Assembly (NCBI RefSeq): GCF_030499515.1
Contig: NZ_JASTWJ010000001.1
Location: 5,808,001 to 5,872,000, forward strand
DNA: 64,000 nt
DNA from: Streptomyces sp. DT2A-34
GTDB lineage: Bacteria; Actinomycetota; Actinomycetes; Streptomycetales; Streptomycetaceae
Reading direction: 5' to 3'
The notes under the pieces are model-generated. The model did no database searches. It saw only the letters and a list, made by a program, of their open reading frames with translations, and had not been told where the DNA came from. This document shows positions 22,974-35,661 of the stretch, one piece after another (the stretch's first letter is position 1; every line of letters begins with the position of its first letter). The position numbers and the translations under genes are program-made.

Positions 22974-24002
22974 TCACGGCTCCCCGTACAACTCCCCGTA
23001 CGACGGCCACACTCCACCCGGTCCGTCCACCGACTCGGCCGCGCGCACGGCACGCACGATCGCCCGCGTCACCGCGTCCGCGCCCGCCGCGAGAAGCTCG
23101 TTCAGCGCGAGCGGGTGCCCGGCGCCGAGCGGACGGTCCCCGGTGGCCAGCGCGAACACGGTGTCCCCGTCGTTGAGCAGATGCACCGGCCGCACGGCGC
23201 GTGCGATGCCGTCGTGCGCTGTGCCGGCCAGCTTCTGCGCCTGCGCCTTCGACAGGTCCGCGTCGGTGGCGACCACCGCGAGCGTGGTGTTCAGCGGAGG
23301 CGGCGCGTTCTTCGCGGCGATCTCCGTGAGGCGCAGGCGCGCGGCCTCATGGACCTGCTCCTGCGGATACTCCACCCGCCCCTGGAACAACTCCCCGTAC
23401 AGCACTCCCGTCTCCGGGTCCACCGCCGCCCCCGCCGCGTTGGCCACCACGAGCGCGGCCACCGTGATCCCCGAGTCGAGAACGACGCTCGCCGTGCCGA
23501 CCCCGCCCTTCACCGCCCCGACCGTCGCCCCCGTACCAGCGCCCACGCACCCCTGCCGCACGGGCGCCCCCGTCTCGCTCGCCGCGGCCGCCTCGACCGC
23601 CGCCCGCCCGGTGGCCGCGTCCGGCCTCGCCCGGAAGTCGCCGCCCCGGCCCAGATCGAAGACGCAGGCCGCGGGCACCACCGGCACGACATGCGCCGGA
23701 TCCACCCCGACGCGCACCCCCCGCCCCCGCTCCTCCAGCCACGCCATCACCCCCGACGCCGCGTCGAGCCCGTACGCGCTGCCGCCCGTCAGCACGATCG
23801 CCTCGACCTTCTGCACGACGTTGCGCGGATCGAGGGCGTCGGTCTCCTTGGTGCCGGGACCGCCGCCGCGTACGTCCACGGCTGCGACGGCCCCGCCCTC
23901 GGGTGCGAGGACGACCGTGGTGCCGGTGAGCCAACCGTCGCCGATGCGCGTCGCGTGCCCCACCCGCAGCCCGGCGACATCTGTCAGAGCGTCAACTGTC
24001 AT
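22974..24002 (-). CDS. P1 (S58/DmpA) family aminopeptidase
   Basis: 342 residues from ATG 24002. It is an Ntn-type autoprocessing peptidase: VGHATRIGDGWLTGTTVVL, DVRGGGPGTKETDALDPRN, VLTGGSAYGLDAASGVMAWLEE and VGAGTGATVGAVKGG are family landmarks. The segment PPPLNTTLAVVATDADL holds the expected cleavage/nucleophile region, with Thr rather than the Ser of DmpA. It probably hydrolyses N-terminal residues or small amides in the cytosol. It stands alone between the transpeptidase and the split ltrA gene. Confidence 0.8.
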   Translation of the reverse strand: MTVDALTDVAGLRVGHATRIGDGWLTGTTVVLAPEGGAVAAVDVRGGGPGTKETDALDPRNVVQKVEAIVLTGGSAYGLDAASGVMAWLEERGRGVRVGVDPAHVVPVVPAACVFDLGRGGDFRARPDAATGRAAVEAAAASETGAPVRQGCVGAGTGATVGAVKGGVGTASVVLDSGITVAALVVANAAGAAVDPETGVLYGELFQGRVEYPQEQVHEAARLRLTEIAAKNAPPPLNTTLAVVATDADLSKAQAQKLAGTAHDGIARAVRPVHLLNDGDTVFALATGDRPLGAGHPLALNELLAAGADAVTRAIVRAVRAAESVDGPGGVWPSYGELYGEP

Positions 24003-24088
24003 GCGCCCAGTCTCGTCCAGTCACCGGCGCGGGCCCGCGATGTCCGGCCATGTAGGGCCGGTCAGGCGTCCGGGCCATGCGGGACCGG

Positions 24089-25072
24089 TCAGGCGACCGG
24101 CGCCCGCGCCGCCGTCCCACGCTCCCGGGGCGTCCCGCGTGCCGACAGCGTCTCCCCGGTCGCCACCGCCCCCGCCGAGACGAGGCCGGCCGCGAGCACC
24201 GCCCAGTCGCCCAGGAACGTGCAGCAGATCACCAGCAGGGCCGTGGTCGGCAGCACCAGCTGCTGGGCGATGCCCACCTTGAAGTAACGCGAGTGCAGCG
24301 CCCAGACGGTGAGCAGGTAGAGCGCCGTGGGCAGGGTCACCGCCGCCGCCGCGGCCAGCGTCGAGATGTGCGCCTTGCCGACGACCTGCTCGACCGCCAC
24401 CTCCAGGCCCGCGCCGATCGCCGCCGCCGAGGCGAAGACCAGGTAGTGGCCGTAACCCCACAGGAACGCCTGCTTGTTGGAGCGCAGGTGGCCATGGATC
24501 GGCACCACGAAGTAGATCCACCAGGCGGCGAAGATGATCAACAGCCCGCCCGCGGCGATCGGCAGCAGATCGCCCAGCGCGTCGTTCTCGTCGATGCCGG
24601 TCTTCACGCCGACCGTGGCCGCGGCGATGGTCTCGCCGAGCACGATGATCGTGAACAGCCCGTACCGCTCGGCGATGTGACGCGGATGCCAGGACGTGGG
24701 GTGGTCCTTCTCCGCGTACGGCGGCACGCACATCTCGAGGATCGCCATCACCAGGAACACCCAGCCCCTGGCGTCCTCGGGCGCGACCACCAGGCCGACC
24801 CATCCGATCTGGCACAGCAGCACCCCGCCGGCGTACCGCAGGGCCATCGTCCGTTCCGGCCCCGCACTTGTCCTGGCCGCGCGCAGCCACTGCGTCACCA
24901 GGGCGAGCCGCATGATCACATAGCCCACCAGCACCGCTTGGTACTCGTGACCCTCGAACGCCCGCGAGACCCCGGCCGCCAGCACCAGCACACCGGCGAT
25001 CTGGATCAGGGTGACGACCCGGTAGAGCACGTCGTCGTTGTCGTACGCCGAGGCGAACCAGGTGAAGTTCAT
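24089..25072 (-). pseudogene. ltrA: 3' part of ltrA, separated from its 5' part by the integrative element
   Basis: 327 residues from ATG 25072. The frame continues to the attL core as TGG and GCC codons before it. Many hydrophobic spans, RLALVTQWLRA, WHPRHIAERYGLFTIIVLGETIAAATVG and LWGYGHYLVFASAAAIGAGLE identify the low-temperature-requirement A (LtrA) family of membrane proteins. The family N-terminus with LELFFDLCFVVAIAQ is missing here and is found on the same strand at 34,639-34,889. Joining the two parts at the shared 7-bp core restores a 412-codon ORF. The fragment could still be translated from ATG 25072, but it lacks the first spans. Confidence 0.93.
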
Positions 25073-25102
25073 CCAGGCCCACCCGTGAGCTAAGGGTGCA
25101 AC
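25061..25102. other. attL of the integrative element
   Basis: The core GCCCACC (25077-25083) joins the chromosomal half-site (25061-25076, ltrA sequence) to the element half-site GTGAGCTAAGGGTGCAAC (25085-25102). The integrase gene starts 30 bases further in, as usual for serine-integrase elements. Confidence 0.85.
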
Positions 25103-25132
25103 ACTGCTCTGACCTGCGAACGACGGAGAGAC

Positions 25133-26824
25133 ATGGAACGGGACGACCTACCCACCCTGCGCGCGCTGGGGTTCAAGGACGAAGAGCTTCGCGCGCTCGG
25201 ACTCTGGGAGCCAGCAACCGGCGACCCTGCCTCGCTGGCAGACGCCTATATCCGGCGCAGTAAGAAGCGCGACGACCTTGCCACCCTCCGGGCCCATGTC
25301 CGGGATGTCTGCCGGGCTGCCGCCGCTGACGGCGTGCGCATTCGGCGAATCTGGTTCGAGCAGCTCAGCGCGAGCAAGGCGTATGTTCGGCGTGAGGAGT
25401 TCGACAACTGCATTCGTGCTGTGCTGGTCGGGCTCTCCAAGGCTCTCTATGTCTGGAAAACCGACCGGCTTTCGCGCCGAGGCATGGGCCAGGTGGGTCT
25501 GTTGCTCGACGATTTCGATAAGCGGTCTGCGCGACTGGTCAGCGTGACTGAGGGACTGGATTCATCCAAGGGTTCGCGCATGGTGTTCGCCATTCTCAGT
25601 GAGCGCGCTCGGGAAGAAGCCAAGGACATTGCGCTTCGGACGAAGGCAGGTGGCGACGCGCACAAGCGTGAGGGACGTTGGCCAGGGGGAGTGGTGCCCT
25701 ACGGTCTGCGCTGCCCCAAGGGAACGGGGAAGCTGGAGCACGATCCCGCCGAATATCCGACTGCCCGCCGTATCGCTGAGGCGTTGTTGGACGGTAAAAC
25801 CCCAGCGGCCATCGCGGAGGAACTCAACAGTAAGCGGGTACGCACCCGTAAGGGCAAGCAATGGCGCGCACAGACCGTAATTCACCTGGCGCAGTCGCCG
25901 AGTTGGGCGGGCCTCGTCCCTGTACGCGAGCGCGCTGTAAAGGTCTACGAGGATGGAACCCGTGAAACGCTGGACAAGTGGCACCGTGGCGGCACTCCGC
26001 TGATGGGGCCGGACGGGCACCCAATCCAGTGCGGGCAGGGTGTTGTTACCTTCGCCGAGCGTGAGGCAATTCTGGCTAAGTTCGCAGCGCGCAGTCGTCC
26101 CGGCACAGCGATTGGCGACCGGACGCGCGGTAAGCGCAAGGCAGCGACGATACTTACGGGCGTTCTGCGCTGTCCGCGCTGTAAGGGGCCGATGGGGAAT
26201 GGCGGGCGCAACTACCGCTGTCTGGCCCGTATCAATCAGGGGCCGTCCGTGTGCAAGGGAATTGCCACCCTGCGCGAGCGCGCTGACGAAGCGGTTGCCG
26301 TTCTGTGGATCAACCACGTGCTTGCGCTGCCGCCCGAGTCTCCGACCATCCACGCTATTGCCCGCCGCTGGCTGTCGTACAACGACCCTGCCAAGGAAAC
26401 TCGGAAGCGTGGCGTAAGTGCAGCACTGGACAATGCGGCAGCGCGTGAGCTTCGCCTGCAAAAGGAGTTCTTCATCGGCGGGAGCATGGCCGAGGCGCAG
26501 TACGAATCGCTTCGCGCTGAGCTGTCCGCGCAGATTGCAGGGCTGAAAGCCGAGTTGGCCGAGCTGTCACAAGAGGCAGACCTCACCCCGCTGATGGATC
26601 CCTTCTCGCTGGCAGAGATGTGGGAGGACGCCGGAATCGACGGACAGCGCGCGCTACTGCAAGCTGCACTGAAGCGCGTCACCCTGTCGGCGCCGAAATC
26701 CGTGGGGGACCGTACGCCCATTCTCGATCGGCTAGAGCCCGAATGGCACGACGACAGCATGAACCCAGCGGTAGAGGCCGCGTGGGATGGCTGGGAAGCT
26801 CGGCGCTCGCAACCCGCAGTCTGA
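25133..26824 (+). CDS. int: Large serine recombinase (integrase) of the element
   Basis: 563 residues from ATG 25133 with GGAGAG upstream. The N-terminal resolvase domain contains AYIRRSKKRDD with likely catalytic Ser43 and VWKTDRLSRRGMGQVGLLLDDF. The recombinase domain (about 180-310) has GGVVPYGLRC and SPSWAGLVPVRERAV. A zinc ribbon, CPRCKGPMGNGG...YRCLA...SVCKG, follows near 345-375, then a helical coiled-coil part typical of the synapsis-control region. It integrates DNA unidirectionally between attP and attB and needs a separate directionality factor to excise. The attachment sites found at the element ends agree with this enzyme class. Confidence 0.95.
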   Translation: MERDDLPTLRALGFKDEELRALGLWEPATGDPASLADAYIRRSKKRDDLATLRAHVRDVCRAAAADGVRIRRIWFEQLSASKAYVRREEFDNCIRAVLVGLSKALYVWKTDRLSRRGMGQVGLLLDDFDKRSARLVSVTEGLDSSKGSRMVFAILSERAREEAKDIALRTKAGGDAHKREGRWPGGVVPYGLRCPKGTGKLEHDPAEYPTARRIAEALLDGKTPAAIAEELNSKRVRTRKGKQWRAQTVIHLAQSPSWAGLVPVRERAVKVYEDGTRETLDKWHRGGTPLMGPDGHPIQCGQGVVTFAEREAILAKFAARSRPGTAIGDRTRGKRKAATILTGVLRCPRCKGPMGNGGRNYRCLARINQGPSVCKGIATLRERADEAVAVLWINHVLALPPESPTIHAIARRWLSYNDPAKETRKRGVSAALDNAAARELRLQKEFFIGGSMAEAQYESLRAELSAQIAGLKAELAELSQEADLTPLMDPFSLAEMWEDAGIDGQRALLQAALKRVTLSAPKSVGDRTPILDRLEPEWHDDSMNPAVEAAWDGWEARRSQPAV

Positions 26825-26842
26825 TGGAGCAGTAACCAATGG

Positions 26843-26889
26843 CACGGGCCCGGCAACATCAACTTGGCGGTAGATCAGCCGGGCCCGTG
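26843..26889 (+). terminator. 12-bp inverted repeat after the integrase
   Basis: CACGGGCCCGGC (26843-26854) and GCCGGGCCCGTG (26878-26889) are exact complements with a 23-base loop. They lie 19 bases past the integrase stop and just upstream of the next small gene. Confidence 0.65.
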
Positions 26890-26914
26890 TTCCTCATCGA
26901 GGAAGGGCAATCCT

Positions 26915-27244
26915 ATGTCTGAGAATGTCTGCGGTGCACGTCGGCTGGTCTTTTCCCGGCGTCCGCCGATCGGCCCGACGCATTTCCCCTGCACGCTGGC
27001 AGCCGGTCATCAGGACGACCACATCGACGACACGGGCGGCACCTGGTCCGGCGACGCTGTCCGACACATGGGCGATGCCGAACTGGAGCTGACCTACCAG
27101 TGGAAAACGATCGCCCGGCGTCTCGAAGCTCTGGAGGCAGCCCAGCGCGCTGGGGACAGATCGATGTACCTGGCGAGCCGCATAGCCAGACTTGAGTGCC
27201 TCCAGCAGGCGCTGTTGGGTAACCCGTCGGCGCTGGCCGCATAG
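26915..27244 (+). CDS. Element-encoded hypothetical protein, 109 residues
   Basis: ATG 26915 with GAAGG upstream. The N-terminal part has Cys and His residues (VCGARRLVF, THFPCTLAAGHQDDHIDDTGG) arranged like a small zinc-binding domain; a C-H-H set around CTLAAGHQDDH is typical of phage proteins of unknown role. The C-terminal half is a long helix (ELELTYQWKTIARRLEALEAAQRAG...IARLECLQQALL). It lies between the integrase terminator and the iteron-like region. I cannot name a function. Confidence 0.6.
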   Translation: MSENVCGARRLVFSRRPPIGPTHFPCTLAAGHQDDHIDDTGGTWSGDAVRHMGDAELELTYQWKTIARRLEALEAAQRAGDRSMYLASRIARLECLQQALLGNPSALAA

Positions 27245-27276
27245 ACGCCGCTACGCGCCCCGCTAAGAACCTCTGA

Positions 27277-27307
27277 GCCCCGTCCGGCCCCTGTGGTCGG
27301 GCGGGGT
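27277..27307 (+). terminator. Imperfect GC hairpin after the 109-residue gene
   Basis: CCCCG (27278-27282) pairs with CGGGG (27302-27306), extended by further C-G and G-U pairs around a CCTGT loop and followed by TTCTG. It lies 33 bases past the stop. Confidence 0.5.
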
Positions 27308-27344
27308 TCTGCTGTGCGCTCTGACGGCTGCGTGGCGCCCCAGC

Positions 27345-27455
27345 TAACCGACTCGACAGATACCCATAGAGCGGGGCAGGTGACCGACTCGCTAGCTACT
27401 CAGTAGAGCGGGACACGGCGGCAGGTAACCGACTCGCTAGTTACTCAGCAGAGGA
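27345..27455. repeat. Three imperfect ~32-bp direct repeats, iteron-like
   Basis: Copies begin at 27345 (TAACCGACTCGACAGATACC), 27381 (TGACCGACTCGCTAGCTACT) and 27426 (TAACCGACTCGCTAGTTACT), each continuing to a GAGCGGG- or GAGGA-type end. The middle copy contains the palindrome CTACT-c-AGTAG. Start-to-start spacings are 36 and 45 bases. They sit in a 335-bp gene-free region upstream of the replication-type genes and could be a replication origin or operator array. Confidence 0.7.
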
Positions 27456-27504
27456 CAGCGCACAGCGCCTCACACAGCTTCCGCCTTGGCCGGTGGGAGG
27501 GCAG

Positions 27505-27533
27505 AGCCTCAGTCATTACGACTGGGGCTTTTC
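27505..27533 (+). terminator. Rho-independent terminator with T-run
   Basis: AGCCTCAGTC (27505-27514) pairs with GACTGGGGCT (27520-27529), with one G-T wobble and an ATTAC loop, followed by TTTCC. It lies directly upstream of the small HTH gene at 27580, so it may also work as an attenuator. Confidence 0.65.
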
Positions 27534-27579
27534 CTTTGCCCTTCTGCCTGCCCCAATCACCGCTAGGAGGTGAGTCCAC

Positions 27580-27771
27580 ATGGACGAAATCACACAGCGC
27601 GTACGGTCCATCGGCGCCCGCCGAAAGCGACTGCGCGACGAACTGACAAGCGCTGACGCCGAACTGCGCAAACTGATGCCCAGCGCAAAGGCAATGCTCA
27701 CGCAGGAGGAAATCCGCGCGTTCACCGGCCTGAGCATCCAAACCATTCGCACATACACAGCACGCGGCTAA
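27580..27771 (+). CDS. Small HTH protein (63 residues) of the element
   Basis: ATG 27580 has the strongest ribosome site in the element (AGGAGGTGAG). Residues 1-40 form a charged amphipathic helix (VRSIGARRKRLRDELTSADAELRKL); residues 42-62 (LTQEEIRAFTGLSIQTIRTYTAR) look like a helix-turn-helix. It could be a regulator of the downstream replication genes or the recombination directionality factor of the serine integrase. Small basic or HTH proteins have this role in related systems. The size and position favour a regulator, but neither role is shown. Confidence 0.65.
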   Translation: MDEITQRVRSIGARRKRLRDELTSADAELRKLMPSAKAMLTQEEIRAFTGLSIQTIRTYTARG

Positions 27772-27809
27772 GCCAGCGCGCACCGGCCAAGGAAGGAAGG
27801 GCGTAGCCC

Positions 27810-28103
27810 ATGAACGGAATCGACCACTACAAGCGCGCTGAAGAACTCATGGCTGAAGCCACACGGACCAGGGTCAACAGCCTTTCGGGCCATGAGTTCT
27901 GCGAAGCTTCCCCCGAGGAACAAGAGCGGCTCACTCGTCTGGCAAGCGTTCACGCCACGCTAGCTCTGGCGGCTGCCACTGCTGATGCAACGGCATTCAA
28001 GCGGGAGCTATACCGGGCCAATGGCGAGGAGCTTCCAGCTGTAAAGCGGGCCGAATCCAAGACCGCCCGTGACGCGGCTGCTGCCGCTGCTTTCCTCGAC
28101 TAA
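27810..28103 (+). CDS. Element-encoded hypothetical protein, 97 residues
   Basis: ATG 27810 with AAGGAAGG upstream. It is all-helical and Ala-rich: HYKRAEELMAEATRTR, EEQERLTRLASVHATLALAAATADATAF, then a C-terminal basic-acidic segment (KRAESKTARDAAAAAAFLD). Proteins with this AEELMAEA...ASVHATLALAAATA pattern are common in actinophages and Streptomyces mobile elements, usually of unknown function. It lies 9 bases upstream of the helicase gene, so the two are probably cotranscribed and may act together. Confidence 0.65.
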   Translation: MNGIDHYKRAEELMAEATRTRVNSLSGHEFCEASPEEQERLTRLASVHATLALAAATADATAFKRELYRANGEELPAVKRAESKTARDAAAAAAFLD

Positions 28104-28112
28104 GGGACTCCG

Positions 28113-29552
28113 ATGAATTTCGATGAGGACTACTGGACCAAGCAGCGCGCCCGGCTCGATGTCAGCGACGAAGTAAGGCACGTGCACTTCGCCAAGTTCG
28201 TTGCAGATCATTGCGCCGACCGGCTGAAGCACGTGGAAAACGTCGGCTGGTACCGCTGGAATGGTGTTGTCTGGGAAGCGACCGGCAACGATGGCGCCGC
28301 AATGCAGGCCATTACAGACGCCGTTGCTGTACTGGCTCAGCGCATAGTCGATGCTCCGGGCGACACTTCGTGGGCCTCCGCTGCCATGTCCAAGATGCTA
28401 GTCAACTTCCAACGGCGCGCGATCGTCGCTGAAATGAGCGTGCTGCGCGAGTTCCGTGTGAACGTGGATGAAATCGACGCAGCCCGCCATCTGCTGAGCT
28501 TCCGCAACGGCACGGTAGACCTGCGCACGGGCGAAATGCGCGAGCACAATCCAGCGGACATGCTGACCCAGTGCGCCCGAGTGGCGTATCGCCCGGAGGC
28601 TTCCGCACCTCGCTGGCTGCAATTCGTTGACGAAGTCTTCCCGGGCGACAGCGAACTACAGCGGTACTACCAAACCTTCCTGGGCTACGCGATTACCGGC
28701 GAAGTGCGCGAGCATGCCCTAGGGGTTTGGTGGGGCGCACATGGGCGCAATGGCAAGGGCACCACGGTGCGCACCATGCAAGCCGTATTCGGCCATGACA
28801 TCGTGCGGGAAGTCGAGTTCAGCATCTTCGAGAATGTGCGCGGGCAGGCACCTCACACTGAGCACATCGCCGGAATGAGAGGCGCCCGAATGGTTGTCGC
28901 GCAGGAAGGTAACCAGGGCACCCCGATGAACACGGCGCTACTCAAGAACCTCAGCGGAGGAGACCGAGTCAGCACGCGCCATCTGATGGGCCGTACGTTC
29001 TCGTATGAGCCGACATTCACCATCGTGCTGGCCACTAACCATCTGCCTGAGTTCTCGTCCGGCGGAGCAGCGCTGTGGGCCCGTACGAAGGCAATTCTGT
29101 TCGGACAGAGCTTCGCTGATCGGCGCGACCCGGAGCTAGAACCCACCATTCAGGGGCCGGAGGCTGAGGGCGTGGCAGCGTGGATCGTGGCTGGCGCCGT
29201 CCGGTACTACGCCGAAGGGCTACACGACCCGCTGAGCGTCATTGCTGCGACCGAACACCACAAGGACTCTGTAGACCCGCTGAAGGACCTTGTGGGCGAA
29301 CTCTTCGACTATGACGAGAACGGCTCTGTCCAGCGCTCCACGTTCAACCGTGAGTTGAAGGAATGGCGCGAGACGAACGGCGACAAGTCGGCGAAGTACA
29401 GCCCGAGTAGCGTGAAGCGGCATCTAATCGACAGCGGGAAGGTCGAGGAGTACCGGAACAAAACCGAGGGCTGGAAGTACCGGGGGATTCGCCTGATGAG
29501 TGACCCCCAGGGTTCCGCCCCGGGCATCTTCGACCGCGCAGATTCCGCCTGA
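28113..29552 (+). CDS. Phage/plasmid primase-helicase of the P4/D5 family (SF3 helicase)
   Basis: 479 residues from ATG 28113. The N-terminal D5_N-type region includes FAKFVADHCADRLKHVENVGWYRWNG and LLSFRNGTVDLRTGEMREHNPADMLTQ. The SF3 ATPase core has Walker A WGAHGRNGKGTT (G208-T217), Walker B region RMVVAQEGNQG and sensor-1 Asn in PTFTIVLATNHLPEF. A C-terminal winged helix (SPSSVKRHLIDSGKVEEYRN) follows. It lacks the N-terminal primase domain of full-length P4 alpha, so it is likely helicase only. It would unwind the element's origin for replication, probably at the iteron-like repeats upstream. Confidence 0.9.
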   Translation: MNFDEDYWTKQRARLDVSDEVRHVHFAKFVADHCADRLKHVENVGWYRWNGVVWEATGNDGAAMQAITDAVAVLAQRIVDAPGDTSWASAAMSKMLVNFQRRAIVAEMSVLREFRVNVDEIDAARHLLSFRNGTVDLRTGEMREHNPADMLTQCARVAYRPEASAPRWLQFVDEVFPGDSELQRYYQTFLGYAITGEVREHALGVWWGAHGRNGKGTTVRTMQAVFGHDIVREVEFSIFENVRGQAPHTEHIAGMRGARMVVAQEGNQGTPMNTALLKNLSGGDRVSTRHLMGRTFSYEPTFTIVLATNHLPEFSSGGAALWARTKAILFGQSFADRRDPELEPTIQGPEAEGVAAWIVAGAVRYYAEGLHDPLSVIAATEHHKDSVDPLKDLVGELFDYDENGSVQRSTFNRELKEWRETNGDKSAKYSPSSVKRHLIDSGKVEEYRNKTEGWKYRGIRLMSDPQGSAPGIFDRADSA

Positions 29553-29578
29553 TTCCACAGCGGACAGGGTCGCGTAAG

Positions 29579-29670
29579 CGGATGGGTGTTCAAAAAGTTG
29601 GCATCTGTAGAGACCTCTTATACGCGTATGAGAGGAGTACTCAGGTGCACAAAATCTTGTCACCCATCCG
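29579..29670 (+). promoter_or_regulatory. Nested inverted repeats enclosing a ribosome site
   Basis: Outer arms CGGATGGGTG (29579-29588) and CACCCATCCG (29661-29670) enclose an inner 22-base dyad (29614-29635: CCTCT-t-ATACGCGTAT-g-AGAGG). In RNA the inner stem is 9 bp with a CGCG loop, and its 3' arm contains the AGAGG part of an AGAGGAG site that precedes GTG 29645. It could hide that site, or as DNA act as an operator. Confidence 0.55.
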
Positions 29671-29791
29671 ATTGCGGGCCCTGCCTCGCTGTGCTGCCGC
29701 GAATCACTCGCCTGCCATCACCCATGCCGCTGACCTGCGGCTATCCCCGAGCCGGCTGAGGGTGGCCATTTTCGAAGGGAAATCACGATGA
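29645..29791 (+). CDS. Possible 48-residue protein coupled to the next gene
   Basis: GTG 29645 lies 8 bases after AGGAG, and its stop overlaps the next start as ATGA (29788-29791), which argues for a real gene. The product is basic and Leu/Ala-rich (VHKILSPIRLRALPRCAAANHSPAITHAADLR...) with no recognisable family. A longer version from ATG 29582 would read through the hairpin region and has no ribosome site. It may be a coupling leader rather than a functional protein. Confidence 0.35.
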   Translation: MHKILSPIRLRALPRCAAANHSPAITHAADLRLSPSRLRVAIFEGKSR

Positions 29792-30093
29792 CCGACCCTG
29801 TTCCCAGCACCATTCCCGCTGACGACATAGCCCGTGCACTGAGCGCTGTACTCGTACCGGCGCCCGGAAAGTGGCTGCAAATCCCCGCCGTCCATAGCGC
29901 TGTGCTTGCCCACCTGGGTGTGCGCAACGGCGCTTCCTACAAGGACATCAAGAACGTCCTTCGGGGCGCTGGCGTGCTTGTGGCCAATTACGGGCCCGAG
30001 CACTGCGCCCGTGACGTTGCGCTGGCCTCTGGCGTGACTGTCCGCGACCTCGAAAAGAAGCTGCGCAACCTGCGCCGCCGCTCCGCTAAGTAA
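29788..30093 (+). CDS. Element-encoded hypothetical protein, 101 residues
   Basis: ATG 29788 with GAAGGGA upstream. A central part (DIARALSAVLVPAPGKWLQIPAVHSAVLAHLGVRNGASYKDIKNVLRGAGVLVANYG) has the spacing of a winged-helix domain, and the tail is very basic (LEKKLRNLRRRSAK). It is likely a DNA-binding accessory protein. It follows the helicase gene after a 235-bp structured gap, so it probably belongs to a second transcription unit together with the 259-residue protein downstream. Confidence 0.6.
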   Translation: MTDPVPSTIPADDIARALSAVLVPAPGKWLQIPAVHSAVLAHLGVRNGASYKDIKNVLRGAGVLVANYGPEHCARDVALASGVTVRDLEKKLRNLRRRSAK

Positions 30094-30119
30094 CAAAAAC
30101 AACGAAAAGGATCAAACTC

Positions 30120-30899
30120 ATGTCTGAGGACCCCATTCAGTACACCGGCACTGGTTCCGAGACCGATCCGATTACGGTTTCTACTCGCCAGCCCGCCCCC
30201 GATCAGGTTGACGTCGCTGTCGCTGGTCTGGCCCGTACCGCCAGGGCTCACGCGGCTGCATTCAGCGACACAGCCGACATGAGCAGCAACCTTCCCGCTG
30301 ACCTACGGGACATCGTGCGGGATGCGTCTATGGCGATCACTGGCACGCTGAACACCGCCATGGAGGCACAGCGCAAGGCGCACAGCTTCCGAAATGACCT
30401 CACGCTGTACCCCCAGGGGCGCGAAATGCTCGCGGGGGAAGCCATCAAGACGGCTGCCGATAAGGTCACGCAGTCGTTCGAGCAGGCTGATACTCAAATT
30501 GAGGTCGCCACGGCACTGAGCTATGAGGCTGCTCGCCCGCGAATTGCGCCGGACGATGCCATGCCCGCTCGCGCTGATTTGGTCATGCTGACGCAGCGCA
30601 ACGCCAACGACACCGGAGCCCTGGTCAACACCATGAAGCGGCTTGCCCAGCGGAATGACGGGGTCGGCGCGCTGGTTGCCGATCAGGGTTTCCTTGCGGA
30701 TTTCATCGACGCGCATGGGATTGACCCGCAGATGCGTGCGGCGATTCTGACGATGGTGAGCGCTGAGGTAGTTCAGGCTGCTGCGAAGAGCGGCGATCCG
30801 AGGCGTTCTGCTGCTGCTCGCACGAATCTGGCGCTGATAGAGCTGCGTAAGGCTCGAATTGCTGCCGATTCCTACACTCGGCACGTTCTTCAGCGCTGA
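30120..30899 (+). CDS. Helical 259-residue protein of the element
   Basis: ATG 30120 with AAAGGATC upstream. The N-terminus is polar and unstructured (SEDPIQYTGTGSETDPITVSTRQPAPD), then long amphipathic helices run from about 45 to the end (LARTARAHAAAFSDTADMSSNL, ITGTLNTAMEAQRKAHSFRNDLTLYP, EVVQAAAKSGDPRRSAAARTNLALIELRKARIAADSYTRHVL). There is no enzyme motif and no membrane span. It could be a scaffold-like or capsid-interacting protein, which would fit a satellite, or a DNA-organising protein. I have no family match. A hairpin terminator follows. Confidence 0.6.
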   Translation: MSEDPIQYTGTGSETDPITVSTRQPAPDQVDVAVAGLARTARAHAAAFSDTADMSSNLPADLRDIVRDASMAITGTLNTAMEAQRKAHSFRNDLTLYPQGREMLAGEAIKTAADKVTQSFEQADTQIEVATALSYEAARPRIAPDDAMPARADLVMLTQRNANDTGALVNTMKRLAQRNDGVGALVADQGFLADFIDAHGIDPQMRAAILTMVSAEVVQAAAKSGDPRRSAAARTNLALIELRKARIAADSYTRHVLQR

Positions 30900-30923
30900 T
30901 CACCTACGGAAAGTCGCATGTGG

Positions 30924-30951
30924 GGGCCCCTGGCTGCTGCGCTAGGGGCCC
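30924..30951 (+). terminator. Hairpin after the 259-residue gene
   Basis: GGGCCCCT (30924-30931) and AGGGGCCC (30944-30951) are exact complements with a 12-base loop, 25 bases past the stop. Confidence 0.7.
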
Positions 30952-31052
30952 TCTGCGGAGGGAGAGTGGTCAGGGTGAGCAACTCATGACTACGACTGAG
31001 ACTCTCGCTCTGCATTACGCGAATGCACGCGCTGAGTGACCATCCCTACCCC

Positions 31053-31086
31053 ACCCCCTGGGGGATGACCCCTTGACCCCCTGGGG
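31053..31086. promoter_or_regulatory. Twin ACCCCCTGGGG boxes
   Basis: ACCCCCTGGGG occurs at 31053-31063 and 31076-31086, 23 bases apart. Each is nearly palindromic. They lie in the 296-bp gap upstream of the terminase-like gene, where no convincing gene is seen. Phase and symmetry suggest binding of a dimeric regulator. Confidence 0.5.
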
Positions 31087-31195
31087 ACGTTGAGCGCGGG
31101 GGAGCGCGCTGTCAGGTCGGCTCGGGCGGAAATACGGAGCGTGTTCAAAAACCGCCGTTCGCAATCAATCCGTAACCAATCAGAGGTAACTCACC

Positions 31196-31537
31196 GTGAA
31201 TAACGAGAACCTACGCCGTGGCCGTTCGCGCCCCGGCCTTCAGCGTACGGTACTGCCCGCCGAATGCGACCTGCCAACCCCGGTTCCACCTGCCCGCGCT
31301 GAGTCCTGGTCCGATGACCAGATAGCCCGATGGGTCGAGTTGTGGCATGGCCCGAGCGCCAATCTGTGGGACGACTCAGCGCGCGGAATGGTCGCCCTGC
31401 TGGTCGAGCTTGAGGCGCTCGGGACGAACGTGAATGCCGCCCAGCTCACTGAAGTTCGGCGTATCAGCGAAACACTGCTACTCACTCCCGGCTCGCTGTC
31501 TGCCGCTGGCTATGCCCTCCCTGGCTGGCCGACATGA
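31196..31537 (+). CDS. Terminase small subunit-like protein of the element
   Basis: 113 residues from GTG 31196 with AGAGG upstream. The order of features matches actinophage small terminases: a basic N-terminus (RRGRSRPGLQRTVLPAECDLP), a Pro-rich link, then W-x3-LWHGPSANLWDDSARGMVALLVELEAL, an AAQLTEVRRISETLLLTP segment where family members have AEIRxLExxLGLTP, and a short tail. In phage satellites of the PICI type a small terminase redirects packaging of the helper phage to satellite DNA. No large subunit is encoded here. The assignment is by pattern only and needs a profile search. Confidence 0.5.
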   Translation: MNNENLRRGRSRPGLQRTVLPAECDLPTPVPPARAESWSDDQIARWVELWHGPSANLWDDSARGMVALLVELEALGTNVNAAQLTEVRRISETLLLTPGSLSAAGYALPGWPT

Positions 31538-31821
31538 GCGCACGCCGCCGAGCAATCGCAGCGCGAAATGCAGGCACGTACGAGGATTCTGGACTCATCC
31601 CGTTCCCATCGACATCTAGATACGCCGACAAGGTGGCAGCAATCGAGGATTACGCCCGCTGGCGTGAATCTCAGAAGCCATTTTCACTCTTCTTCCTTGG
31701 TCTTGACTGGCGTACCTGGGACGGGCCGGTGCCGCCTAACCGATGGGTTGACGGCGTGCATTACGTGACCATCGACGGCGAGGAACGACCGGTGAACATG
31801 AACCGGTGCGAACGCCGCTGA
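31534..31821 (+). CDS. Hypothetical protein coupled to the terminase-like gene
   Basis: 95 residues; ATG 31534 overlaps the previous stop as ATGA, so translation is coupled. The N-terminus is basic (SARRRAIAARNAG); the rest has aromatic-rich segments (KVAAIEDYARWRESQKPFSLFFLGLDWRTWDGPVPPNRWVDGVHYVTIDGEERPV). No family is recognised. Its coupling suggests it works with the terminase-like protein, for example as a packaging or capsid-remodelling partner, but this is inference only. Confidence 0.6.
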   Translation: MSARRRAIAARNAGTYEDSGLIPFPSTSRYADKVAAIEDYARWRESQKPFSLFFLGLDWRTWDGPVPPNRWVDGVHYVTIDGEERPVNMNRCERR

Positions 31822-31842
31822 CAAAACCCCACATACCAAGTC

Positions 31843-31876
31843 GCCCTCGATTCTCTCGCTGGAGTCGGGGGCTTTC
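31843..31876 (+). terminator. Hairpin with GT wobbles followed by TTTC
   Basis: GCCCTCGATTC (31843-31853) pairs with GAGTCGGGGGC (31862-31872), including wobbles. GGAGTCGGGGGCTTTC recurs at 32730-32745 in the same orientation downstream of the RHH domain. Confidence 0.6.
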
Positions 31877-31897
31877 TCGTACCTGAAAGAGCGTCAG

Positions 31898-32509
31898 ATG
31901 ACCGTTGCCAACCTCGCCCGCTATGCCGCCTTGCTCGCTGCCATGTTCATCAGCTTCAGCACGCAGCAGCAGCTAGCCGTTTCGCACGGAGTGCCTGAGT
32001 GGCCGTCATACGCCGTGCCCGTGGCCATCGACCTGTTCCTAGTCTGGGCTGTCCGGTCACGCCGTGACATTGCGCTGGCCGTGTCCGTAGCCGTGTCCGC
32101 GAACGTGGCTGGTGTCCTTTCCAGCGAAAGCCTGCACGCCGTAGGCACTTGGGTGTCCGCAGCGCTGCACGCCGTATTCCCACTGACCGTCTGGCGAATG
32201 CACCGACCAGCGAAGCCGCGTACGCCCGCTGAGGCCCCTGAAGGCGAGCCGCTGGCCATTCCCTTGCCCGAGCCCGCGCTAGCGCTTCCTGTGCCCGCCG
32301 AGAGCCTGCCGGACAGCTGGCCGGACGATGACCTGTGGGCGGACTTTGAAGCGGTCAGCGAGACGGCCACCCCGCCGGAGCCTGATGAAGTCCGGGCGGT
32401 CATCGCTGAGTTGAAGTCCACGCATGGCCGTGCAACCGGTCAGATGCTGGCCGACCACTACGGCGTGAGTCCGCGTACTGGCCGCCGCTATTTGACGCTG
32501 GCCGGTTGA
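31898..32509 (+). CDS. DUF2637-like membrane protein with C-terminal HTH
   Basis: 203 residues from ATG 31898. The N-terminal ~105 residues contain about four short hydrophobic spans (YAALLAAMFISFSTQQQLAV, YAVPVAIDLFLVWAVRS, IALAVSVAVSANVAGVL, WVSAALHAVFPLTVW), typical of the DUF2637/Spd-like proteins of actinobacterial plasmids and phages. A Pro/Glu-rich linker leads to a C-terminal HTH (EVRAVIAELKSTHGRATGQMLADHYGVSPRTGRRYLTLAG). Such proteins accompany plasmid spread or phage regulation. A membrane-tethered DNA-binding role is plausible here. Confidence 0.7.
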   Translation: MTVANLARYAALLAAMFISFSTQQQLAVSHGVPEWPSYAVPVAIDLFLVWAVRSRRDIALAVSVAVSANVAGVLSSESLHAVGTWVSAALHAVFPLTVWRMHRPAKPRTPAEAPEGEPLAIPLPEPALALPVPAESLPDSWPDDDLWADFEAVSETATPPEPDEVRAVIAELKSTHGRATGQMLADHYGVSPRTGRRYLTLAG

Positions 32510-32530
32510 CCAACCCACTAAGGAGAACCC

Positions 32531-32815
32531 GTGACCATCCGCCGTATCCGAGTCCGACTCTGGGAATCCGAGTTCGAGACCCTTGCCCGCCTCGCCGAGG
32601 AATCCGGCCGGACCTTCAATGACGTAATGCGCGATGCGCTCCGCCAGCACGCTGAGGAGTACGACAGCGACGAGAGCGCCCAGCACATGGCCCCTGGCTT
32701 CGCCGACCCTGGATCACTCAGGGAGACGCGGAGTCGGGGGCTTTCGTATTCAACGTGCCGCCTGTGCCCGTTTCAGCGCGTCACGGTGTTCCCATGTCCA
32801 AGGAGCGTCACGTAG
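32531..32815 (+). CDS. Ribbon-helix-helix (Arc/CopG-like) protein
   Basis: ATG 32531 with AGGAG upstream. Residues 1-50 (TIRRIRVRLWESEFETLARLAEESGRTFNDVMRDALRQHAEEY) fit an RHH fold: a beta-strand of alternating residues, then two helices. The C-terminal ~35 residues (SRGLSYSTCRLCPFQRV...) look non-native and lie across a hairpin and the 3' end of the opposing XRE gene, overlapping it by 66 bases. The functional part is probably the first ~60 residues. It may be a second repressor or the directionality factor for the integrase. Confidence 0.65.
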   Translation: MTIRRIRVRLWESEFETLARLAEESGRTFNDVMRDALRQHAEEYDSDESAQHMAPGFADPGSLRETRSRGLSYSTCRLCPFQRVTVFPCPRSVT

Positions 32816-33721
32816 CTCCGCAGGAAGCCCGGCAAGTCCCGCCGTGATGTGGTCGGCGGCATCCGCATACCGTCCGAGTCCAAGGTTCGCGAGACCCATA
32901 TTCAGCCGGTTGAACTCAGGCGTAAGCCAGTACGCCGTTTCCGGGGGAGGAATCGCCGCCGCTTTGTCGGTCAGTCGCTCCGCGTTTTCAACCATGCGCA
33001 GCGCATCGTCATGCGCCCCCAGTTCGGCCATGCCTGCGGCAGCCTGCAACATGTCGCCGAGTCGTTGCGCGGGATGAGCCCCTGGCGTGAATGCTGCTGC
33101 CGCGTACCAGCGTGCTACTCCGTCCGGCCTTGCCTGCTGTCGCGCGAGGTATCCCCGGAAGTTCAGTGCTTGCGCTGCCAGCGTGCCATTCCCGATTTCG
33201 TCGGCCAACTCCACAGCTTCGTTCAGCAGTCGCACGGCTTCGGTGTCTTGCCGATCCTGCGCCAACAGCCATCCGCCGAACTGAACGTATTCCGATGCAA
33301 CTTCCGCGAGCCTGTCACGCTGCGGTCCCCTGGCGCCTTTCAGTAGCCGGAGTACTTCGTTCATTTGCGCTGTCGTCGCTGGAATAACGCTGCGAGGCTG
33401 CGCCGTGTCATCGAGTCGGCGGTAGGCGGCGAGCACACCAGCCAGCGCGTCAACGGTCCCGGCGTCCAAACGCGACGGATTCGCGGCACTTCGCTTCACG
33501 CGCTCGCTGTCGTCGTCATCAAGCACTGTTGCAGCAAGCGCGCCGTCTGCCCCTACAAGGGAATCCAGCGAGGATGCCAATTTTGCCGACGGCTTCTGTT
33601 TTCCGTTGAACACTCGGGATAGGTAGGCCACGTCGTAATTCATGGCGCGAGCGGCAGCCTTCATCGAATATCCGCTGTCCCGTAGCGCCCGGCGGGCAAG
33701 ATCAGCAAAGTTGTCACGCAT
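32750..33721 (-). CDS. XRE-family regulator with TPR-like C-terminus, likely master repressor of the element
   Basis: 323 residues from ATG 33721, preferred over upstream ATGs because GAGG lies 7 bases before it. The N-terminal HTH is LARRALRDSGYSMKAAARAMNYDVAYLSRVFNGKQKPSAKLASSLDSLV. The remaining helices (RDRLAEVASEYVQFGGWLLAQDRQDTEAVRLLNEAVELADEIGNGTLAAQALNFRGYLARQQ...) are TPR-like, as in Streptomyces Xre-TPR regulators that sense peptides or small ligands. It is the only long minus-strand gene in the element and is divergent from the small right-end genes. It probably controls the lysogenic state. A palindromic operator lies just upstream. Confidence 0.85.
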   Translation of the reverse strand: MRDNFADLARRALRDSGYSMKAAARAMNYDVAYLSRVFNGKQKPSAKLASSLDSLVGADGALAATVLDDDDSERVKRSAANPSRLDAGTVDALAGVLAAYRRLDDTAQPRSVIPATTAQMNEVLRLLKGARGPQRDRLAEVASEYVQFGGWLLAQDRQDTEAVRLLNEAVELADEIGNGTLAAQALNFRGYLARQQARPDGVARWYAAAAFTPGAHPAQRLGDMLQAAAGMAELGAHDDALRMVENAERLTDKAAAIPPPETAYWLTPEFNRLNMGLANLGLGRYADAADHITAGLAGLPAELRDAPWTWEHRDALKRAQAAR

Positions 33722-33734
33722 CGTGAACCTCGGC

Positions 33735-33769
33735 GGGTTGACTGGTGTTACTCCCATGGTAGTCAACCC
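33735..33769. promoter_or_regulatory. Operator: GGGTTGACT/AGTCAACCC inverted repeat
   Basis: Exact 9-bp arms at 33735-33743 and 33761-33769, with a third half-site GGTCAAC at 33771-33777. It lies 14-48 bases upstream of the XRE start, in the divergent promoter region shared with the right-end genes. It is well placed for autorepression. Confidence 0.65.
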
Positions 33770-33842
33770 TGGTCAACTCCCGCGTAGCGCTTGCAGGTCG
33801 AAGCATGGACGTATGACGGGAGCCGACGAGGGGACAGCGACC

Positions 33843-34022
33843 ATGGCGAGCCAAACCACGGCGGATACGGACGCGCGACGGCATGAGTACACGACGTACA
33901 GCCCGCCCGGCGAGAAGTGCCGGAAGTGCCTTAAGCCGTTCAAGACGCTGGAGACGTGCCGCCGCGTGGCCAACGGTGGGTCGAATGCCGACCGGTACGA
34001 ACACCGCGAGTGCCCGGCATGA
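33843..34022 (+). CDS. Small Cys-rich protein of the element
   Basis: 59 residues from ATG 33843, chosen for the GAGGGGAC ribosome site; ATG 33813 would add ten residues. It has a CRKC pair, then C-x3 and a terminal H-x2-C (KCRKCLKPFKTLETCRRVANGG...YEHREC), a likely zinc-binding fold. It is first of three genes joined by stop-start overlaps (ATGA at 34019 and GTGA at 34258). Such short zinc-finger-like proteins are frequent at the right end of actinobacterial elements. The function is unknown. Confidence 0.6.
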   Translation: MASQTTADTDARRHEYTTYSPPGEKCRKCLKPFKTLETCRRVANGGSNADRYEHRECPA

Positions 34023-34261
34023 CCGCTCCCGCAAAACGCCGCTACGTCCGAGTGAGCGCCTTACCGGACCCGGAGCTAGTGAGCCTCATAGATGAGTCGC
34101 CGTACGCGGATTCACCGGAAGGCTGGTGGACGGAACACGGCGGAGCGCTGGACACGCGTTCAGGGGTCGTCTATTTCCCGCCCGGTTCGAACCGGCCGCC
34201 GAGTCCGTTTCCCTGCCGTCTCTGCGACCGGTCGCGCCGTGCGAGAGAAGGTAAGGCGTGA
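34019..34261 (+). CDS. Hypothetical protein, second of the coupled right-end genes
   Basis: 80 residues, starting in the ATGA overlap. Basic N-terminus (TAPAKRRYVRVSALPDPELVSLIDESP), an aromatic middle (EGWWTEHGGALDTRSGVVYFPPG) and a C-terminal CRLC pair (FPCRLCDRSRRAREGKA) that may bind metal with partners. No known family is recognised. Its coupling to both neighbours suggests a small complex made in equal amounts. Confidence 0.6.
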   Translation: MTAPAKRRYVRVSALPDPELVSLIDESPYADSPEGWWTEHGGALDTRSGVVYFPPGSNRPPSPFPCRLCDRSRRAREGKA

Positions 34262-34485
34262 TGCTGCCTGAGCCGCCCGTAGAGGCATTGATGATCCCGG
34301 ACCTACGGACTCCCCGTGATGGTCCCGTAGACCCGGAAACCTGCCCCACATGCGCCACGCTCAAGGGTCGCCTTGCAGCTGCGCTTGACTCCCACCGTTC
34401 CAGGCAGGCATCCCACGTCATCCGCGCTATGTACGTGCACATGAGGCAAGGGCACCCGCACGACAGCCGCAACGTAACTCTCTGA
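34258..34485 (+). CDS. Hypothetical Cys-pair protein, third of the coupled right-end genes
   Basis: 75 residues from GTG 34258 (overlapping the previous stop) or ATG 34261. It contains CPTCATLKGRLAAALDSHRSRQASHVIRAMYVHMRQGHPH, a CxxC followed by helix and clustered histidines, consistent with a small zinc finger that has a basic helix. It is the last gene before attR. A hairpin terminator follows at 34532. Confidence 0.6.
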   Translation: MMLPEPPVEALMIPDLRTPRDGPVDPETCPTCATLKGRLAAALDSHRSRQASHVIRAMYVHMRQGHPHDSRNVTL

Positions 34486-34531
34486 CCCCGGCTCGCTGAG
34501 GACGGCCCGAGAAGGGCTCAGCGCGTCGGCT

Positions 34532-34573
34532 GCCCCCGTCTGTGTGCCTTCCCCCGTGGCGCCGGACGGGGGC
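34532..34573 (+). terminator. Hairpin terminator near the right end of the element
   Basis: GCCCCCGTC (34532-34540) and GACGGGGGC (34565-34573) are exact complements with a 24-base loop, then TTCC. It would insulate ltrA from element transcription. Confidence 0.65.
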
Positions 34574-34620
34574 TTCCTGCTGCCCAGCCATAGCCGCTGG
34601 TCAGAGGTTCGCGGTATGGT

Positions 34621-34661
34621 GTTGCTCCGTTGGTTCACGCCCACCAGATGGCGAAGAACAC
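34621..34661. other. attR of the integrative element
   Basis: The core GCCCACC (34639-34645) joins the element half-site (34621-34638, GTTGCTCCGTTGGTTCAC) to chromosomal ltrA sequence (34646 on). The element half-sites from attL and attR form an imperfect 18-bp inverted repeat around the core (14 of 18 positions match), as expected for a serine-integrase attP. Confidence 0.85.
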
Positions 34662-34889
34662 CATCGCGTAGTTGAGGATCCCCTCGCCCGGGTGCCCCTC
34701 GGCGACGGCGTGCACCAGCTGCACGCCCGCCTGGGCGATGGCCACGACGAAGCACAGGTCGAAGAAGAGCTCCAGCGGGGTGGCGGCCCGGTGTGCCTCA
34801 CCCCGGCCACGGGCCGTGAGCCTGCGCAGCGGGCGGTGGGTTCCCGGCGGGCGGGAGGAGTCCGGCGCGGGAGTCGAACTGGACGTCAT
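34635..34889 (-). pseudogene. ltrA: 5' part of ltrA, ended by a stop codon brought in by attR
   Basis: 84 residues from ATG 34889 (GTG 34901 is an alternative). Encodes the family N-terminus with RAATPLELFFDLCFVVAIAQAG and NYAMVFFAIWWA, the first membrane spans. At the attR core the reading frame passes from TGG TGG GC- into element sequence and meets TGA at once (34635-34637). The missing continuation, TGG ATG AAC..., is at 25,075 leftward. The native ltrA promoter therefore stays with this short fragment. LtrA function is poorly known; it was first linked to low-temperature growth in Listeria. Confidence 0.93.
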
Positions 34890-35015
34890 GGGATCAAGCA
34901 CAGCAGATGGGGCGGGGAATTTCTTGCGAAGGGATCACAAGCGCGCGAGTGCCGGGACCGTCGCCGGGAGGGCTGTCGCCGTGGAGGGCCGCCGTGCGGG
35001 CCGTACCCTGGACGC

Positions 35016-35198
35016 ATGAGTAACGCCCCCGCCCCCGAGCCGCGCGAGCCGAAGCCCGCGCTGATCTTCGACGACCCGCTGGACCAGCAGTCCTCGGACG
35101 ACACGGACCGCGGGTGGGGCGAGCGGCCCGGCGGTGAGGGCGACAGCGCCGCCGACCTGAAGCGCTTCCTCGACGAGAAGCCGCCCCACCACCTCTGA
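35016..35198 (+). CDS. Small acidic hypothetical protein, probably leaderless
   Basis: 60 residues from ATG 35016. A -10-like TACCCT (35004-35009) ends 6 bases before the ATG and there is no ribosome site, so the transcript may begin at the start codon. The protein is acidic and disordered (EPREPKPALIFDDPLDQQSSDDTDRGWGERPGGEGDSAADLKRFLDEKPPHHL), with a short motif LIFDDPLDQQSSDDTDRGWG that looks conserved. I recall similar proteins beside mscL in Streptomyces. The function is unknown. It converges on mscL with a 4-base gap. Confidence 0.6.
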   Translation: MSNAPAPEPREPKPALIFDDPLDQQSSDDTDRGWGERPGGEGDSAADLKRFLDEKPPHHL

Positions 35199-35202
35199 GC
35201 CG

Positions 35203-35661
35203 CTATCGCTCGTCGTGCCCCGAACCGCGCTGCGCCACCAGTGCGTCGCGGATCTCCTTGAGCACCTCCAGCTCGGTCACCTCGATGACCTCGTGGGCGC
35301 CCTCCTTCGCCTTCCTGCGGGCCTCGACCCGGGCCAGGTACTTCGCCATCGGCAGCACCATCAGGAAGTAGACGACGGCCGCGGTGATCACGAAGCTGAG
35401 GGTCGCGCCGAGGACCGAGCCCCACAGGATCGTGATCCCCTGCTCGCCCTCGCACTTCGAGCTCAGGCACGAGCTGTAGTGATCGAGGTTCTTGGTGCCG
35501 ATCGCGCCGACCAGCGGGTTGATGATCCCCTTCACCACCGCGTTGACGATGTTGGTGAACGCGGCGCCGATGACCACCGCCACAGCCAGATCGACGACGT
35601 TGCCGCGCATCAGGAAGGCCTTGAAGCCCTCCCAGACGCCCGGATCCTTCTTCTCGCTCAC
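35203..35661 (-). CDS. mscL: Large-conductance mechanosensitive channel
   Basis: 152 residues from GTG 35661 with GGGGTGG upstream. TM1 includes FKAFLMRGNVVDLAVAVVIGAAFTNIVNAVVKGIINPLVGAI, the MscL signature with the pore-lining helix. A short periplasmic loop with two Cys follows, and TM2 is LSFVITAAVVYFLMVLPMAKYL. A C-terminal cytoplasmic helix (VIEVTELEVLKEIRDAL) closes the bundle. It forms a pentamer in the cytoplasmic membrane that opens under osmotic downshock. It is monocistronic. Confidence 0.95.
   Translation of the reverse strand: MSEKKDPGVWEGFKAFLMRGNVVDLAVAVVIGAAFTNIVNAVVKGIINPLVGAIGTKNLDHYSSCLSSKCEGEQGITILWGSVLGATLSFVITAAVVYFLMVLPMAKYLARVEARRKAKEGAHEVIEVTELEVLKEIRDALVAQRGSGHDER

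Follow-up and report, generated by a model that had tools for sequence, protein, structure and literature searches.

An integrative element of serine-integrase type in ltrA of Streptomyces sp. DT2A-34 and its relatives at the same site

We examined a window of 64,000 nucleotides from the 10.3-Mb, two-contig genome of Streptomyces sp. DT2A-34 (contig NZ_JASTWJ010000001.1, forward-strand positions 5,808,001 to 5,872,000), in which the gene ltrA is split by a 9,562-bp element. We consider it very likely that this is a serine-integrase element, phage- or plasmid-like, integrated at a chromosomal attachment site (attB) in ltrA that has been used repeatedly in Streptomyces. The element is real and largely conventional, and its landing site is one for which we found no description in the open-access literature. 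Integrase activity, excision, loss of LtrA function and the mode of transfer are what we infer from the DNA.

Split ltrA and the ends of the element

An initial annotation had proposed that an element splits ltrA and carries GCCCACC at both ends, that joining the chromosome at this core gives a 412-codon frame, and that integration leaves an 84-codon fragment. All three points were borne out. The parts of ltrA, the element with its left and right ends (attL and attR), the arms of its own attachment site (attP) and its integrase gene lie as follows:

24089..25072, minus strand: ltrA 3' part, codons 86-412 counted from the ATG; frame open to its own stop
25077..25083: attL, GCCCACC, the 7-bp run in common with attR; predicted crossover CA at 25080-25081
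25080..34641: integrated element, 9,562 bp
25082..25106: attP right arm, pairing with the left arm at 17 of its 25 positions
25133..26824, plus strand: gene of a 563-aa large serine integrase (phrog_95 integrase); domains above cut-off Resolvase PF00239 and Recombinase PF07508, below it zinc ribbon PF13408
34617..34641: attP left arm, pairing with the right arm
34638..34889, minus strand: ltrA 5' part, 84 codons, ATG at 34889, ending W-W-A
34639..34645: attR, GCCCACC, the 7-bp run in common with attL; predicted crossover CA at 34642-34643

The ltrA 5' part is closed by a TGA at 34637-34635 that the element supplies. When the flanks were joined at the core in silico, a single 412-codon LtrA frame resulted (...FFAIWWA-WMNFTWFASAY...), with the motif FFAIWWAWMNFTWFASAY unbroken. 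The joined flanks aligned in one piece across the junction with each of three intact loci: L053 (94.1% over 3,616 bp), L054 (91.9% over 4,267 bp) and L055 (91.4% over 4,265 bp). Small gaps occur elsewhere in these alignments and none in the 57-bp attB stretch, and the continuity of intact homologues across the core, which the initial annotation had wanted checked, is unbroken. The 57-bp stretch was identical in 6 of 30 intact loci and had at most four differences in all 30, these being the best of 311 genome matches to LtrA. Genome-wide, PF06772 gave exactly two matches, which are the two complementary ltrA pieces; a second complete ltrA as the source of the fragments is ruled out by this result. 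Exact restoration of ltrA upon excision, likewise claimed at the outset, is supported as an in silico prediction by the joined frame and the empty-site alignments.

The integrase gene is the first inside the element, adjoining attL with its start 50 bp from the core, and residues Y39, R41, R42 and S43 of its product are invariant in all five integrases aligned. We found the attributes of a large serine integrase system: Resolvase and Recombinase domains in a protein of more than 500 aa encoded beside the attachment site, an attP of about 50 bp with imperfect inverted repeats around a central dinucleotide, and a short run common to attL and attR. The 7-bp match by itself is weak evidence for the element ends; they are more than chance because the frame is restored, attP is palindromic and relatives of the element exist. 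Together, the integrase domains, the ends and the empty sites support the original proposal of a site-specific integrative element of the serine-integrase type with ltrA as its attB.

Related elements and the crossover point

Relatives were sought in a same-genus sample of 392 genomes, including that of the window (G000), and more widely by scanning, with an alignment of integrases, a collection described as covering 84,980 species by a single genome each, which yielded 33 named loci; the target gene was established for 10 of these 33. The search for ltrA split by serine-integrase elements in other genomes, also called for by the initial annotation, was successful: six distinct elements interrupt ltrA, all at one and the same codon, namely that of the window (9,562 bp), L033 (genome G348; 10,605 bp), L035 (genome G269; 12,925 bp), L039 (S. 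smyrnaeus; 10,438 bp), L083 (S. scabichelini; 10,673 bp) and L106 (S. tendae JCM 4610; 9,092 bp). L039 and L088 are one place and were counted once. All six have both ltrA halves, and each half matches in a single frame as far as the core. The integrase is the only called gene common to the six; element genes were called by a simple method of our own, so absences are soft.

The integrases of ltrA-splitting elements are about 60-80% identical to that of the window, and the related integrases in same-genus genomes show 81% (G348), 76% (G269), 70% (G079) and 62% (G298) identity. Elements in ltrA were present in 4 of the 392 same-genus genomes, and an integrase-only form in one (G079). The exact attR pattern occurred in five of the 392, four of them the ltrA insertions (G000, G269, G298, G348) and the fifth G045. 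Matches with at most one mismatch (56 of 392 genomes) were dropped as chance, since a reversed control pattern also matches dozens; the one-mismatch matches in G087, G095 and G125, just downstream of ltrA matches, were judged from their codons to belong to the next gene. All 33 plasmid records that matched the integrase did so at less than 60% identity, and IMG/VR held one relative (L116, 66%, on a 7.3-kb contig).

Joining the element ends gives an attP whose arms form an imperfect palindrome, agreeing at 17 of 25 positions; of 13 centres tried, CA was the best. The same dinucleotide was the best of 13 centres in all nine elements compared, with 17-20 of 25 arm positions matching. The run shared by attL and attR is GCCCACC in five of the six ltrA elements and CACCAG in L106; in elements at a second site, in a DsbA-family gene (dsbA), it is GGGCA in L089 and L090 and only TG in L086. 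Across the nine elements these four runs intersect solely in CA/TG, and by this comparison the crossover is predicted to lie there. The 7-bp core of the initial annotation stands as the attL/attR identity; as the crossover it gives way to the predicted dinucleotide, which reads CA on the integrase strand and TG, within the Trp83 codon, on the sense strand of ltrA. Outside the attP palindrome, at 25100-25130 and 34600-34620, we read by eye GGTCAGAG-like and GTTCGC motifs whose order and strand are swapped between the two ends; these are perhaps further protein-binding sites.

Four relatives (L086, L089, L090 and L091) are inserted at the CPWC codons of the DsbA-family gene, in which PF01323 was found in L090 and L091, and the predicted crossover there is the TG in the codon of the first Cys. 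With serine integrases, which way round an element lies depends on the central dinucleotide. L086, from Kitasatospora sp. GP82, has TG where the others have CA and is inverted relative to L089-L091 at the same site, which agrees with this polarity rule; this natural comparison offers one inverted case (L086 with TG against L089 and L090 with CA). We first picked the centre of L086 by eye; the palindrome and the restored frame MKVEIFSDIACPWCFIGK then served as checks. A midpoint-rooted tree of 25 integrases placed all 14 members of the ltrA/dsbA group in a single branch with support 100/100. The dsbA label must change twice inside this branch, each time because well-supported nodes force it: L088 (ltrA) adjoins L089-L091 (dsbA), and L086 (dsbA) stands apart. 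These two forced changes indicate that the target has switched between ltrA and the DsbA-family gene within one integrase branch.

We propose the following course of events. The large serine integrase would recombine an attP of about 50 bp, beside its gene, with an attB lying roughly over ltrA codons 75-92, with strand exchange at the predicted dinucleotide in the Trp83 codon. Integration leaves an 84-codon 5' fragment with a stop from attP and would probably separate the ltrA 3' part from its own promoter. The same branch of integrases reuses the ltrA site in Streptomyces, with differing cargo between the ends, and excision, for which a directionality factor is expected to be needed, would restore ltrA exactly.

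Element genes, integrase-only loci and the state of ltrA

We scanned 12 different element open reading frames (ORFs) in all, 10 by Pfam, 10 by PHROGs and 10 by NCBIfam. Besides the integrase gene, the element holds the following:

26864..27244, plus strand: small ORF just 3' of the integrase gene, without family match; weakly similar ORFs at the corresponding position of L033, L083 and L116
28113..29552, plus strand: P4-type phage/plasmid primase-helicase; D5_N PF08706; TIGR01613 above cut-off; phrog_6088
31898..32509, plus strand: 203-aa protein without family match; relative in L039 (58%)
32531..32815, plus strand: ribbon-helix-helix protein, PF01402
32750..33766, minus strand: helix-turn-helix regulator, PF13560/PF01381; NsdA-family regulator NF053720 above cut-off

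For the primase ORF, Pfam gives only D5_N and a sub-cut-off DUF5906, and PHROGs matches it to families named primase or polymerase/primase, in their C-terminal part. Its relatives occur in two of the five other ltrA elements (L035 and L039), that is, in three with the window. Homologues of the helix-turn-helix regulator, 75% identical to it, occur in L090 and L091, both of them loci of the dsbA site. The small ORF is, by conjecture, a candidate excision factor. We found no Rfam family at gathering score in 24000-35500 and no PADLOC defence family in six element proteins. Elsewhere in the genome lies a second, distant serine integrase (G000:C1:9025361-9026836, 29% identity).

Other elements in ltrA have individual genes of their own. 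A radical-SAM/SPASM protein is encoded in two of them, L033 (9098-10114) and L083 (9270-10172; element coordinates), the two copies being 82% identical, and the G269 element has a DDE transposase (PF13546; L035:2566-3849) between attL and the integrase. In S. tendae the element, of 9.1 kb, encodes a capsid-family protein (L106:14387-15550; PF05065, E 1.8e-6), which suggests a satellite-like element; PHROGs gave no match for this protein or for three others.

In three species the integrase gene stands alone, between a peptidase gene and mscL:

L084:10001-11698, S. tailanensis: lone integrase gene, open frame of 565 aa
L085:10001-11698, S. sp. GQFP (the same as L037): lone integrase gene, open frame of 565 aa
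L087:5686-7350, S. sp. AC512_CC834: lone integrase gene, open frame of 554 aa

The order at these loci is S58-family peptidase, integrase, mscL and a phosphorylase-family gene, with the neighbours' family names taken from the window's copies; neither ltrA nor the remainder of the element survives, save for a 14-codon ltrA remnant in GQFP. Beside the integrase gene, L084 and L087 have only a short stretch, read by eye, that resembles the left half of attB. The ratio of nonsynonymous to synonymous divergence (dN/dS) was 0.23 for L084 against L085 and 0.11 for either against L087. At 0.32, the dS of the lone integrases is lower than the 0.44-0.72 of the genes around them, so these values do not establish that they have simply descended vertically since the species diverged. 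Among 61 relatives of G079 we found no further close integrase-only copy, the best other match being 48%. L106 and L087 are close in their host genes (94% nucleotide identity in mtap) but their integrases are only 63% identical, which speaks for S. tendae and S. sp. AC512_CC834 having acquired them separately at a single site. It is a bold reading that in S. tailanensis and S. sp. GQFP the lone integrase has been kept for a host purpose after deletion of ltrA and the element. The integrase-only loci offer a view of how such elements decay or persist in part.

Several observations weigh against the interpretation of the insert as a mobile serine-integrase element. Among the 12 ORFs scanned we recognised neither a known excision (directionality) factor nor a relaxase, FtsK-type transfer protein, terminase, portal or capsid, so the autonomy of the element is doubtful. 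The window's assembly contains neither a free attP (at most two mismatches) nor an empty attB (at most three), which leaves movement a prediction. The symmetry of attB is low (6-8 of 26 positions in six elements). Finally, the attL-like ends of L084, L085 and L087 lack GCC-CA at the expected place, so that the history of these loci cannot be read from them.

The missing recognised transfer or packaging genes, together with the integrase-only loci L084, L085 and L087 in relatives, fit an element that no longer excises or moves and is heading toward the integrase-only state. However, the integrase frame is open and conserved, and attL and attR are complete and resemble those of the five other elements. 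We regard such a dead element as unlikely, with a modest chance of being right.

The initial annotation had further held that the integrity of ltrA is governed by the state of the element. The distribution of ltrA does not support this: LtrA was matched (E <= 0.001) in 311 of the 392 same-genus genomes and not in the other 81, and three species lost ltrA while keeping the integrase. For these two reasons ltrA looks dispensable. By sequence, we found no solved structure of LtrA at E <= 0.1. Both ltrA halves of the window are still open frames. Private codon changes in the C half number 9 synonymous and 8 non-synonymous in the window against 9 and 2 in L053 (small numbers, without a significance test), and in the N half the window has none. 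This state is compatible with recent insertion and perhaps reflects relaxed constraint.

Could controlled excision, prompted by cold, sporulation or another signal, restore ltrA when needed, with the element then re-integrating? The exact frame restoration predicted on excision and the matching of both halves in one frame up to the core in all six elements are in keeping with such a switch, and precedents of regulated gene integrity are discussed in PMC10111431. We found no positive evidence beyond this anatomy, however; the 81 genomes without an LtrA match, the permanent loss of ltrA at the three integrase-only loci and the 8 non-synonymous changes of the window's C half against 2 in L053 all speak against it, and recent insertion accounts equally well for the open halves. 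We judge the switch to be quite improbable. An assembly artefact or two unrelated ltrA copies can be dismissed with near certainty: we found no point in favour, the only two PF06772 pieces in the genome are complementary, the same architecture recurs in other assemblies, and the alignment with empty sites is continuous.

The interpretation that we favour, a serine-integrase element at a repeatedly used site in ltrA, adds a conserved landing site in Streptomyces for one branch of serine integrases. Because the 17-bp attB stretch TTCATCCASGCCCACCA is present, exactly, in 243 of the 392 sampled genomes (counted genome-wide, whether or not the match lies in ltrA), the integrase is a candidate tool for integration in this genus; the window's genome lacks the stretch, as an occupied site would predict. 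In natural genomes the branch displays both a ltrA/DsbA-family target switch and one element inverted along with its central dinucleotide.

Comparison with known systems

We found no description of ltrA as an attB in the open-access literature, subscription papers and island databases not being covered, in agreement with the initial annotation, which knew of no such element. In PMC7563491, ltrA appears as a cargo gene of Streptococcus elements.

Among phages, the best relative in 416 matching records is the integrase of Streptomyces phage Rowa (43.9% identity over 95%); unlike the window's element, Rowa is a 42.9-kb phage. SPbeta is a full prophage with developmental excision that interrupts a host gene, and YotN is its excision factor. 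The SPbeta integrase YokA, solved also as a fusion to YotN, is the nearest solved structure by sequence (PDB 9dxh, 9dxd; E 5.2e-7, residues 81-275). This is a distant likeness in which only part of the protein is matched.

PICI-like satellites (in the manner of phage-inducible chromosomal islands) combine an integrase, a regulator and a primase without a set of structural genes. The window's element has the same content: integrase, regulator and primase, and no structural genes recognised. Like the actinomycete integrative and conjugative elements (AICEs; PMC3218068), the element has an actinobacterial host and integrates site-specifically, some AICEs using serine recombinases in protein-coding genes. 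Unlike them, it showed no FtsK/SpoIIIE-type Tra in the ORFs scanned and, by Pfam, no RepSA, RepAM or Prim-Pol domain. With systems of regulated gene integrity it shares the in silico anatomy of a disrupted gene and a predicted exact restoration on excision.

Among described systems, the phiJoe/SCO2603 family of Streptomyces serine-integrase elements comes closest in pattern (PMC5311408). Both have a serine integrase beside an attP of at most 50 bp, with imperfect inverted repeats around a central dinucleotide, and both use one chromosomal target in many strains, with very variable cargo and versions reduced to the recombination genes (PMC5311408). They differ in the target: that of phiJoe/SCO2603 lies 74 bp from the end of a radical-SAM gene (PMC5311408), whereas here the element enters at codon 83 of the 412 of ltrA and disrupts the gene.

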